A stretch of 64,000 nt of DNA from Burkholderia sp. USMB20 (GTDB lineage: Bacteria > Pseudomonadota > Gammaproteobacteria > Burkholderiales > Burkholderiaceae), in the NCBI RefSeq assembly GCF_000949135.2, contig NZ_JTAN02000021.1:62001-126000 (forward strand), written 5' to 3'. The notes beneath the pieces are model-generated. The model was given only the letters and a program-made list of their open reading frames with translations, was not told the origin of the DNA and did no database searches. Both the position numbers and the translations under genes were made by a program. This document shows positions 1,563 through 36,855 of this stretch, piece by piece; positions within the stretch are counted from its first letter, which is position 1; the number at the start of each line of letters is the position of its first letter.

Positions 1563-1673
1563 ATGCTTAACGTATCGTCCGTCCTGATCAGTCTCGCGCC
1601 GATGTGGGCGATTCTGCTGGTTGCATCGTCCGCCGCGACCTATCTCGTGTTCTGGCGCAAGGTCATCAAGTAA
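1563..1673 (+). CDS. Single-span small membrane protein (36 aa)
   Basis: An ATG at 1563 follows a strong GAGGAA ribosome binding site at 1552-1557 and opens a 36-codon frame ending TAA. The product has a short polar N-terminus, one hydrophobic span (about residues 8-29, ISLAPMWAILLVASSAATYL) and a basic tail FWRKVIK. This is the pattern of small inner-membrane subunits or regulators with the C-terminus in the cytoplasm. No family is recognised. It converges with the universal stress protein 26 bp downstream. The clean ribosome binding site and hydrophobic composition argue that it is expressed; size limits certainty. Confidence 0.5.
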   Translation: MLNVSSVLISLAPMWAILLVASSAATYLVFWRKVIK

Positions 1674-1699
1674 GCGGCGAGCGCCGCACCGCGTGCCGC

Positions 1700-2134
1700 T
1701 TATCTGACCGCCGTCACCGGCACGTTCGAAATCCGCACGAGGCGGCCCATCATGCTGCGACCGAACATCGACAGCATCTGATGAAACGGATCGTGCCGCG
1801 GCGCGACCACGACGATTTCGTCGCAGCCCGTCTCGGCCGCAACGGCCGCGATCGTGTCGGCCACCGGCCCGACCTTCTTCACGACGCTGTATCGGACGCC
1901 GGCTTCCCGCAGCACCCGCTCGGCCGTCGCCAGATCGTCGCACGCGAACTGGTCCTCGATCGAGCGCAGTCGCGACAGCGAGTGAAATGCCTCGAGCCGC
2001 GTCGCTTCGAGCGGCGGCTGGACGTTGATCAGCACGATTTCCGACGCGCAGCGTTCGCGATACAGGAAGGTCGCATGGCGGACCGCCTGCAGCGAACGCG
2101 GCGAATGGCCGACCGGAACCAGCAGCTTGAGCAT
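1700..2134 (-). CDS. Universal stress protein, UspA family
   Basis: The 144-residue product has the length and opening (MLKLLVPVGHS) of a single-domain UspA protein, with the alternating Rossmann-like alpha/beta pattern ending in SNVPVTAV. These cytosolic dimers help cells survive stress and starvation. The ATP-binding members carry G-x2-G-x9-G-S/T near the C-terminus. Here that region reads APRHDPFHQMLSMFGRSMMG and lacks the first glycine pair, so ATP binding is doubtful. No operon partner is evident: the next gene on the same strand lies below 1216. Confidence 0.85.
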   Translation of the reverse strand: MLKLLVPVGHSPRSLQAVRHATFLYRERCASEIVLINVQPPLEATRLEAFHSLSRLRSIEDQFACDDLATAERVLREAGVRYSVVKKVGPVADTIAAVAAETGCDEIVVVAPRHDPFHQMLSMFGRSMMGRLVRISNVPVTAVR

Positions 2135-2515
2135 GGAAGATGCTCCGGAATCGAGATGTTTGCAGCGTAGCGCGGCGCCGGATCGACCGACCTAAAGAGA
2201 TCGGGCGGCCGCGTAAAAATGTCGTCAACGTCCGCCGCGCCTATTAGAAATATAAGAAATTTAAGTTTATGCGCATAAACGTTTTCACCGACCGGCCGGG
2301 CGGTGGCCCGGGCGGGCCGTCGAGTGGCGCACCACGCCGATTTAGTCGGATCCTCAATGAATCGCGGCGGAAAATATCGGAGGTCGGCGATCCGGCGTCG
2401 CGTAGAGTAGTGCATCGGCCGCGGCGCGGCCTTCTCCCGGGCTGTCCAGGCCGTTCGGGACGGACCGCCGCCACGCTGCGGCCCGCCATTCCATTCCGAT
2501 TCCAGGAGACCTCGC
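2135..2515. promoter_or_regulatory. AT-rich promoter region with a 16-bp perfect palindrome (2265-2280)
   Basis: Between the divergent universal stress protein and amidase genes lies an unusually AT-rich patch (about 2243-2282). Inside it, GTTTATGCGCATAAAC at 2265-2280 is a perfect 16-bp palindrome. This is the size and symmetry of a dimeric repressor operator. The site is about 130 bp from the universal stress protein start and 235 bp from the amidase start, so it could serve either gene. The regulator is not identifiable from the window. The rest of the region holds no gene. Confidence 0.45.
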
Positions 2516-4000
2516 ATGCCGCATGGCGCCCCGCAGCTTCTCGCACCCGCTTCCATCACCGTCGACCCGATCGTGCGCCTGTCGGCCGGCGAACTCGCGT
2601 CGGCGATCCGCGGCAAGGCGGTCTCGTGCGTCGAGACGATGCGTGCGTATCTCGATCACATCGAGCGCGTGAACGGCGCGGTGAACGCGTTGATTTCGCT
2701 GCGCGATCGCGCCACGCTGCTCGCCGAAGCGGCGGAAAAGGACGCGGCACTCGCCCGCGGCGAGTACCACGGCTGGCTGCACGGGATGCCGCAGGCGCCG
2801 AAGGATCTCGCGATGACGAAAGGGCTGCGCACGACCTACGGCTCGCCGATCTTCCGCGATCACGTGCCGCAGGCCGATTCGGTCGGCGTCGGCCGGATGC
2901 GCGCGGCGGGCGCGATCTTCATCGGCAAGACCAACACGCCGGAGTTCGGCCTCGGCTCGCATACGTTCAACGAAATCCACGGCGCGACGCGCAATCCGTA
3001 CGACCTGACGAAGAGCGCGGGCGGCAGCAGCGGCGGCACGGCGGCGGCGCTGGCCGCGCGCATGCTGCCGGTCGCGGACGGCAGCGACTTCGGCGGCTCG
3101 CTGCGCAATCCGGCCGCGTTCTGCAACATCTACGGCTTGCGTCCGTCGCAGGGCCGCGTGCCGCGCTGGCCGGGCGTCGACGTGTTCATGCAGCAGCTCG
3201 GCATCGAAGGGCCGATGGGCCGCACGGTCGGCGACGTCGCGCAGCTGCTCGCGATCCAGGCCGGCTACGACCCGAACGATCCGCTGTCGCTCGCGGAAGA
3301 TCCGGCCGTGTTCGCGAAGCCGCTCGATACGGACCTGCGCGGCAAGCGCATCGCGTGGGTCGGCGACTGGAACGGCTATCTCGCGACCGAGCCGGGCGTG
3401 CTCGCGCAGTGCGAACAGGGCCTCGCGACGCTGCGCGAGATCGGCTGCGACGTCGATGCCGCGCTGCCGGCGTTCGCACCGGAGCGCATCTGGCGGCTGT
3501 GGCTCGCGCATCGGCACCTGCTGTCCGGCGGCGGGCTGCTCGCGCACTATCGCGACCCGGCACGGCGTGCGCTGCTGAAGCCCGAGGCGATCTACGAGGT
3601 CGAAGGGCTGCTCGCGATGCAGGGGGCCGAGGTGTTCGACGCGAGCGTCGAGCGCACCGCGTGGCATCAGGCCGTGCTGGGCTTCTTCGATCGCTACGAC
3701 TTCATCGCCGCGCCGACCGCGCAGGTGTTTCCGTTCGACGTCGAGCAGCGCTGGCCGCAGGAAATCGCGGGCCGCGCGATGGATACCTACCACCGCTGGA
3801 TGGAAACGGTCGTGCCGTGGACGCTGGCCGGCTGCCCGGTAATCAGCGTGCCGGTGGGCTTCAACGACGCGGGGCTGCCGATGGGGATGCAGCTGATCGG
3901 CCGGCCGCGCGCGGATCTCGCCGTGCTGCAGCTCGCGCGCGGCTACGAGCAGGCGGCCGACTGGGTCGGCCGGCGGCTGCCGGGCTGGATGGCTGCGTAA
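2516..4000 (+). CDS. Amidase, amidase-signature family
   Basis: This 494-residue cytosolic enzyme should hydrolyse a carboxylic amide to acid and ammonia. The Ser-cisSer-Lys triad is intact: Lys96 in PKD, Ser171 in GGSSGG, and Ser195 in DFGGS. The spacings of 75 and 24 residues equal those in fatty acid amide hydrolase. The start at 2516 follows an AGGAG ribosome binding site. Length is usual for the family. The physiological substrate cannot be told; it is too short for a GatA complex role and no gatB or gatC is nearby. It is followed by a hairpin terminator at 4049, so it appears monocistronic. Confidence 0.9.
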   Translation: MPHGAPQLLAPASITVDPIVRLSAGELASAIRGKAVSCVETMRAYLDHIERVNGAVNALISLRDRATLLAEAAEKDAALARGEYHGWLHGMPQAPKDLAMTKGLRTTYGSPIFRDHVPQADSVGVGRMRAAGAIFIGKTNTPEFGLGSHTFNEIHGATRNPYDLTKSAGGSSGGTAAALAARMLPVADGSDFGGSLRNPAAFCNIYGLRPSQGRVPRWPGVDVFMQQLGIEGPMGRTVGDVAQLLAIQAGYDPNDPLSLAEDPAVFAKPLDTDLRGKRIAWVGDWNGYLATEPGVLAQCEQGLATLREIGCDVDAALPAFAPERIWRLWLAHRHLLSGGGLLAHYRDPARRALLKPEAIYEVEGLLAMQGAEVFDASVERTAWHQAVLGFFDRYDFIAAPTAQVFPFDVEQRWPQEIAGRAMDTYHRWMETVVPWTLAGCPVISVPVGFNDAGLPMGMQLIGRPRADLAVLQLARGYEQAADWVGRRLPGWMAA

Positions 4001-35961: not shown

Positions 35962-36609
35962 TTACGCCGGCATATACGTGAACGGCTCTCCGTCTTCCCG
36001 CTCGACGGACAGCAGCCGCTTGAGCTGATCGAGCGCGAACAACTGCTTGCCTTCCGCCGCCGCTTCGGCGATCGCGGCATCGACGAGTTTTCGCGCGCGC
36101 GCGAGGATCACGGATCGCTGACGCGCGATCTCGAGCACCATGCGTTGCTCGATGTTCTGCCGGCTCGATTGCCTGTCGCTCAGATGACGCCAGCGATCGC
36201 GAAGCTCGGCCCAGGTGACGCGCCGGAATTCCGGAATCGTGCAGGGGAGCGTGCCGGCTTCCGCGGGTTCCGGCGGCGCGCGCAATGCGCATCGCAGCGC
36301 TTCACGGGCGCGCCATTCGTCGGAAAACGGTGCATATACGTCGCGCGAGCGGCCGATCGGATTCGCGCGCTCGATTTCCTTTTCGAGCAGGTAGGTCAGC
36401 CGTCGCAGTGCGGAGCCGTGCGCGAGCATGGCCGGATCGAGCACGCGGATCCCGCGCGATGCATCCGCGACGTGCGCTTTCAGTTCCCACAGCGTCAGAC
36501 GAAGGTGCTGCACCTCGAGGATCAGTCGCTGGACGTCGGCGTAGGTGCACTTCGTCCACCATTCGGTGAGGTCGTTCAGCTTCGGGGGATCGAATGGGGG
36601 GAGGATCAT
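35962..36609 (-). CDS. Unknown 215-residue protein under a LexA-box promoter
   Basis: The frame from the Met at 36609 (MILPPFDPPKLNDLTEWW) encodes a soluble, mostly helical protein with several Trp and Arg and no signal peptide or membrane span. A helical region at about 17-75 (TYADVQRLILEVQHLRLTLWELK) could be a coiled coil. I recognise no domain. Directly upstream is a consensus-like promoter with a LexA operator, CTG-N10-CAG, at 36628-36643, 18 bp from the start codon. This implies induction by DNA damage. A frame extension to 36702 would run through the operator and is rejected. A DNA repair, mutagenesis, cell-division or phage-type role is possible but not shown. Confidence 0.7.
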   Translation of the reverse strand: MILPPFDPPKLNDLTEWWTKCTYADVQRLILEVQHLRLTLWELKAHVADASRGIRVLDPAMLAHGSALRRLTYLLEKEIERANPIGRSRDVYAPFSDEWRAREALRCALRAPPEPAEAGTLPCTIPEFRRVTWAELRDRWRHLSDRQSSRQNIEQRMVLEIARQRSVILARARKLVDAAIAEAAAEGKQLFALDQLKRLLSVEREDGEPFTYMPA

Positions 36610-36627
36610 GTTACTGCTGAAGAGGCA

Positions 36628-36643
36628 CTGTATGGATATACAG
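36628..36643 (-). promoter_or_regulatory. LexA (SOS) box
   Basis: CTGTATGGATATACAG matches the enterobacterial/betaproteobacterial LexA consensus CTGTATATATATACAG at 14 of 16 positions, including both CTGTAT/ATACAG arms. It sits between the -10 element and the start codon of the gene at 35962-36609, ideal for repression. Confidence 0.85.
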
Positions 36644-36672
36644 TTTATCGCGCGGTAACATAGCGCCGTCAA
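36644..36672 (-). promoter_or_regulatory. Sigma-70 promoter of the LexA-controlled gene
   Basis: Minus-strand TTGACG (36667-36672) and GATAAA (36644-36649) are 17 bp apart. The -10 abuts the LexA box, so bound LexA would block transcription initiation. Confidence 0.65.
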
Positions 36673-36855
36673 GGCGAAAAAACAGGGACGGTCGACGGGC
36701 AACCGTCACCGGCGGCGGGGCCGCGGCCACGCACCGGATCGTTCATCGACTTTCCCCCACGTTCGCCATCCCGATCCTCAATCCGGGCGCCTGTCCGGCG
36801 CATGCCATCGCGAACGCCGATGCGTGTGCCGGCGTATCGACGCCAACAGAGAACA

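Follow-up and report, generated by a model that had tools for sequence, protein, structure and literature searches.

The locus examined here raises two questions: whether an unnamed Burkholderia gene is truly controlled by the SOS repressor LexA, and what its product might then do. Within the window, the whole 64,000-nucleotide stretch of DNA analysed, the coding sequence occupies positions 35962..36609 of the minus strand, with its ATG at 36609 and its stop codon ending at 35962, and specifies the 215-residue protein (P0001) that the sequence-only reading had described. The sigma-70 promoter named in that reading was borne out as well: a -35 element TTGACG (36667..36672, minus strand) is separated by 17 bp from a -10 element GATAAA (36644..36649, minus strand), directly after which, and abutting it, lies the LexA-type operator CTGTATATCCATACAG (36628..36643, minus strand), which stops 18 bp short of the ATG. 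The operator is a perfect CTGTAT-N4-ATACAG palindrome and, as had been counted, agrees at 14 of 16 positions with the E. coli-type LexA consensus. It has no mismatch to the pattern CTGTATNNNNATACAG. Nine sites with up to three mismatches to this pattern occur in the 64-kb window versus 3.2 expected, the operator alone having fewer than three and the other eight having three each, and none of 300 simulated windows drawn from a first-order Markov model contained a perfect site.

Across ten related genomes, sites with no more than one mismatch to the pattern number 10-17 per genome versus 1-3 for its reversed control, and the genes behind 20 such sites in related genomes were read. In genome G002, LexA-type boxes stand before lexA (a double box, locus L078), recA (L081) and imuA (L077), and further boxes stand before a PA0069-type radical SAM gene in the same genome and a gene with UvrA domains in G049, the identity of all these genes being confirmed by profile. 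The operator of the window is identical, over its whole 16-mer, to the imuA box of L077. Among 150 genomes of relatives, 33 contain a match to the window protein: 15 carry full-length orthologues of 87-96% identity (group A, to which the window protein belongs; the closest are from B. ambifaria, 95%, and Burkholderia sp., 94-96%, which suggests that the window comes from a Burkholderia cepacia complex chromosome), 11 homologues are 43-50% identical over most of their length (group B), and the rest are partial or weak. The group-A coding sequence is, to judge from its dN/dS of 0.087 (120 pairs; median dN 0.040, median dS 0.492), under purifying selection, and the corresponding value for group B is 0.110 (36 pairs). 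The sequence-only reading had staked its proposal on orthologues retaining the LexA box. All 15 intact group-A orthologues do retain it with at most one mismatch, together with TTGACG, so that the proposal came through this comparison intact. Counting the window, TTGACG is present in 16/16 group-A promoters and the exact 16-mer in 12/16, the -10 element being GATAAA in 11, GCTAAA in four and GACGAT in one. At the group-B loci the box has no mismatch outside the spacer in 11/11. These operator counts leave out the partial or decayed loci L039-L042 (L011 and L012 duplicate the remnants L042 and L040, respectively), of which L042 has a one-mismatch box while L039, L040 and L041 have none.

The protein had been assigned to no recognised family. 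This stands for Pfam and NCBIfam, in which no relative was found at E<=1, and no relative was found among PDB sequences either, but residues 1-206 match PHROG 17852 (E=3.8e-83), a phage protein family of no stated function, which is matched also by seven of ten other family members tested (E<=0.1). The PHROG entry gives neither function nor regulation, and the copy in the window is chromosomal. An alignment of 36 members (A4) defines a core of about 85 residues in which E32 and R37 never vary and W18, L29 and R81 hardly do. The profile made from it matches the orthologues twice (for example in G001, E=2.6e-32 and 1.3e-6), and in blastp the N- and C-terminal halves of the window protein match each other at E=0.005. 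As far as these matches tell, the window protein consists of two tandem copies of a domain of about 85 residues that folds as a helical hairpin. The first copy, delimited by the alignment and the structure model, comprises residues 1-91 (36337..36609, minus strand), and the second, diverged copy, seen as the second profile match, comprises approximately residues 125-204 (35998..36237, minus strand). Structure prediction, which had been proposed as a check, was informative for the core: residues 1-98 were modelled with a pLDDT of 83.5 and a pTM of 0.68 as a short helix (11-20), a 34-residue helix (24-57) and two more helices (59-64 and 66-82). The full-length model was poor (pLDDT 61.3) and was left unused, and fold searches with the core domain returned no significant match and no functional hint. 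The VIA matches, among them helices of a recombinase, a seryl-tRNA synthetase and fibrinogen, look like generic helical hairpins. Other members of the family are proteins of about 80-130 residues with one core, or carry an N-terminal extension ahead of the core (family C, for example the protein of phage KS9).

Counting weak matches, at E<=0.001 a profile of groups A and B finds 72 of 398 Burkholderiaceae genomes (four of 25 genera) and a profile of family C finds 83 (six of 25 genera). An order-wide search gave four of 300 genomes, three of them in the same bacterial family and one marginal (E=4.3e-4), and a class-wide search gave four of 274, namely G001 and three marginal matches inside reading frames of 805-1742 aa. 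These few matches argue against a wide distribution, and on the evidence of the searches the domain is found almost only in Burkholderiaceae. Within Burkholderia, 45 of 65 genomes have a family match. The absence of any match from the other 20, together with the survival of the group-A gene only as remnants in G006, G041 and G049, indicates that the gene is dispensable. The window protein found nothing by tblastn among phages and plasmids and no relative in a scan of viral contigs, and a group-B protein had no match among phages; the C protein alone reached named phages, with eight records from four of them (KS9, Magia, Mana and BgManors32).

The operator was followed beyond groups A and B. 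At 37 distant loci, hand-picked from the matches of the A/B and C profiles, an upstream box with at most one mismatch is present in 29; of the eight loci without one, L160 lies at a contig end, L176 is truncated, L183 and L195 are decayed, and L177, L182, L184 and L194 are plain misses. All 188,644 bases of the distant loci contain 32 sites of this quality, and the background in 300-base windows is about 0.2. Among C-type or short loci, three genes of which are common to the distant set, the box is present in 26 of 30, and for the whole family, with three duplicates removed and the 16 group-A and 11 group-B promoters added, it is found at about 80 of the 91 loci inspected. As the promoters of distant members otherwise differ, the operator is the part that has been kept. 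The identity with the imuA box, the boxes at lexA and recA, and the retention across group A, group B, the C-type and short members and the distant members all support the LexA-control reading, and the gene in the window is very probably a LexA-repressed SOS gene whose promoter is freed by damage. LexA bound to an operator abutting the -10 element would block the sigma-70 promoter, and RecA-stimulated cleavage of LexA after DNA damage would release it. The ATCC at the centre of the box, constant in 16/16 group-A promoters, exceeds what a LexA spacer should need and might be taken for the mark of another regulator. That the box is such a foreign site, or a chance palindrome, and the gene outside SOS control is nevertheless highly improbable, given the same 16-mer at imuA and the retention of the box both in homologues of 43-50% identity and in distant members with otherwise differing promoters.

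A study of 2012 (PMC3323433) lists, in the text available, lexA, recA, uvrA, imuA-imuB-dnaE2, splB and two hypothetical genes, hypA and hypB, among predicted LexA targets in beta-Proteobacteria. The two hypothetical genes resemble the gene in the window in bacterial group, in regulator and in having no assigned function, hypB being called 'exclusive to the Burkholderia genus', and one of them may represent the present family. As for the suggestion of an undescribed SOS function, the open-access literature, as far as its texts were accessible, yielded no description of the family or of the gene pairing reported below, but its LexA control was possibly predicted under one of these two names. In the accessible sections of two studies of B. 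cenocepacia, recA is induced under damage or in protist vacuoles (PMC10944698, PMC10710452), lexA also in the former, and no gene of the family is named; the corresponding sections of PMC3091744 contain nothing on it.

The surroundings of the other family members point to a more specific connection. Most Burkholderia relatives outside group A are divergent neighbours of genes for SRAP (YedK/HMCES, PF02586), a protein to which the window protein itself does not belong. In 65 Burkholderia genomes, 75 family loci were counted (100 match rows minus 25 second-domain matches in the same gene, decayed copies kept), and of the 60 outside group A, 42 have an SRAP match within 2.5 kb, in divergent orientation in 41 cases, where about 0.07 would be expected; 18 lie away from it. 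None of the 15 group-A loci is near SRAP, and the window itself contains no SRAP gene (best E 0.30). SRAP is itself common, with a match in 59 of the 65 genomes and 123 match rows (three of them below the Pfam cut-off), 81 of which have no family neighbour. In group B, an intact SRAP gene diverges from the family gene across a LexA-type box at eight of 11 loci; SRAP is decayed at two others, and one has no SRAP within 1.5 kb. Six of the eight (L030, L031, L033, L034, L035 and L036) have a small reading frame of 113-139 aa, with the motif 'RPMT.VQ.AF', lying between the two genes in the direction of SRAP. Among 30 of the 123 SRAP loci that were fetched, a box lies within about 250 bases upstream of SRAP in 12 of 20 paired and in 0 of 10 solitary cases, a count for which SRAP starts were set automatically, several of them apparently wrongly, and in which an intervening gene displaces the box. 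In all four phages matched by the C protein (KS9, Magia, Mana and BgManors32) the family member and SRAP diverge with a box between them. Phage AP3 is an exception, SRAP there being divergent from a different reading frame of 96 aa (L101:878-1168, minus strand) with a CTGTATATTTATACAG box in between, and going by this phage SRAP may have several SOS-controlled partners.

As judged from sequence comparisons, then, the finding is real and richer than first stated: an unnamed SOS-linked family whose remaining members show a striking link to SRAP. Work on SRAP (PMC3765255) gives, in the portion available, LexA, ImuA/ImuB, polymerases, Ku, ligase, helicase and zinc-ribbon domains as partners, the present family not among them, and notes SRAP in Burkholderia prophages, for which a damage sensor and lysis switch are suggested. 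An accessible part of PMC5567305 presents a DUF159 gene with an unnamed neighbour in a Paraburkholderia prophage and does not discuss SOS control.

Several members are surrounded by prophage genes for tail, lysis and methylase functions, recognised by eye, and this raises the question of whether the family consists of lysogenic-conversion, anti-phage or anti-defence genes that use the LexA promoter merely for expression at prophage induction. Members occupy accessory positions in prophages, frequently close to a DNA methylase gene (assigned by eye, and annotated in KS9), and are patchily distributed, as would suit such genes. We consider this improbable, as PADLOC gave no match for the four members tested and as such a role leaves unexplained both the recurrent divergent pairing with SRAP and the solitary conserved chromosomal copies. 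Deletion of yedK left Brig1 immunity unaffected according to the available text of PMC11078745, a result that does not speak for SRAP acting in counter-defence.

The copy in the window is among the solitary ones, occupying a conserved chromosomal place outside any prophage; group A adjoins the same FAD oxidoreductase gene at all 15 loci examined (13 with an intact gene, two with a remnant). Its promoter retains a trace of the paired arrangement. Over the 46 nt upstream of the operator, it matches 17 members of the group-B, C and short types, some of which have no intact SRAP, at 30-37 positions; 14 positions are shared with imuA and 15 with a distant solitary member. The shared stretch includes a CCC and a T-run, and in phage Magia the matching CCCC is the annotated ribosome-binding site of SRAP on the opposite strand. 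Just beyond the -35 element, the stretch CCCTGTTTTTTCGCC (36673..36687, minus strand) resembles the part of the cassette that holds the SRAP leader on the opposite strand, and no SRAP follows in the window. The window copy probably derives from a cassette of the prophage type, now chromosomal and without its SRAP half; in such cassettes a family gene and SRAP diverge from one LexA-controlled intergenic region. In the simplest history, such a cassette would have been captured before the cepacia complex radiated, and loss of SRAP, vertical descent and occasional gene loss would have followed; the reverse direction is also possible.

Given the conserved operator and the SRAP neighbours of its relatives, the gene probably has a role in the DNA-damage response. 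SRAP proteins handle abasic sites from bacteria to humans, and no dedicated bacterial partner was found in the literature searched. YedK acts on such sites and forms a reversible DNA-protein crosslink (PMC9436759, available text). With chances a little below even, we propose that the protein shares with SRAP the task of handling abasic or stalled single-stranded DNA, working as a small soluble adaptor that binds protein or DNA, a proposal drawn from the pairing and the co-regulation. Since none of the 15 group-A copies has a SRAP neighbour, joint action would need SRAP encoded elsewhere in the genome. All 15 group-A genomes have a SRAP match, an observation that does not discriminate, as 44 of the 50 other genomes have one too. 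More speculatively, the family might be a dedicated bacterial SRAP partner that tunes how SRAP-DNA crosslinks form or are reversed at abasic sites. Prophages would have spread it under a common LexA switch, and it would have become chromosomal on at least two occasions, in the Burkholderia cepacia complex with its domain duplicated and in another genus of Burkholderiaceae as a protein of 122 residues with one domain; this fuller version is a tentative one. A family found repeatedly across one LexA-type switch from SRAP, and solitary on chromosomes, offers a genetic handle on what else the pathway needs, and extends the Burkholderia SOS regulon by an unnamed family.

The main rival starts from the phages. 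Coliphage 186 encodes a LexA-controlled antirepressor, Tum, near the end of its genome, and the family might consist of Tum-like proteins that inactivate a repressor uncleavable by RecA, thereby inducing the prophage; the copy in the window would then be a retained relic that acts on resident prophages or regulators. Tum and the family have in common a LexA-controlled gene near a phage genome end; no profile match points to Tum, and the window copy is outside a prophage. Phage and prophage members are sited past the lysis genes, which in KS9 and Mana places them close to the end of the genome and in Magia between these genes and integrase. Six of the seven sequences or fragments whose charge was computed are basic (pI 7.9-10.8), the C protein of L096 having a pI of 5.7. 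The rival is kept alive because the annotated repressors of KS9 (133 aa, no Pfam match) and Mana (189 aa, a sub-threshold HTH_3 match only) lack the S24 self-cleavage domain. It is weakened by the conservation of solitary chromosomal copies, group A being held under purifying selection in one chromosomal place, by the company that the family keeps with SRAP in different phage genera, and by the lack of any helix-turn-helix or antirepressor profile at cut-off, L187 alone giving a sub-threshold Trans_reg_C match (E=0.079). We regard antirepressors as unlikely, though still worth keeping in mind.

LexA-type control of a small helical protein would also suit, by an analogy of role, an SOS-induced brake on growth or division as SulA is, or a regulator of RecA or LexA as DinI is, carried by prophages and chromosome alike. 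The window protein has no match to the SulA models present in NCBIfam, nor to anything else in NCBIfam or Pfam at E<=1; the latter would include DinI, whose model we presume to be in those libraries. No SOS brake is known to be paired with SRAP, and a role of this kind seems decidedly doubtful. Our overall reading, a LexA-repressed chromosomal descendant of an SRAP cassette that probably serves as an accessory factor in DNA damage, is held at about even odds.

Other LexA-type boxes came to light in the related genomes. G002 has two one-mismatch boxes about 4.4 kb apart, one (L085:1560-1575) preceding the gene for a Rep3-type replication initiator (1921-3099, plus strand) by some 350 bp and the second (L084:1493-1508) before a gene for a DUF2471 protein (1582-1956, plus strand). 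The same two boxes recur with the same spacing in G012, G017 and G049, the boxes alone being compared, and SOS control near the origin of a secondary replicon is possible on this pattern. In three genomes, small proteins starting with 'LRCKPGD' and having no Pfam match are encoded within about 60 bp behind a LexA-type box (L082:1596-1919, plus strand; L090:1527-1865, plus strand; L094:1200-1499, minus strand), and are possibly another undescribed SOS family. At L079:1510-1640, the same promoter-operator module as in the window stands by spanin-like genes, recognised by eye, followed by a short reading frame only, and is possibly a decayed cassette.
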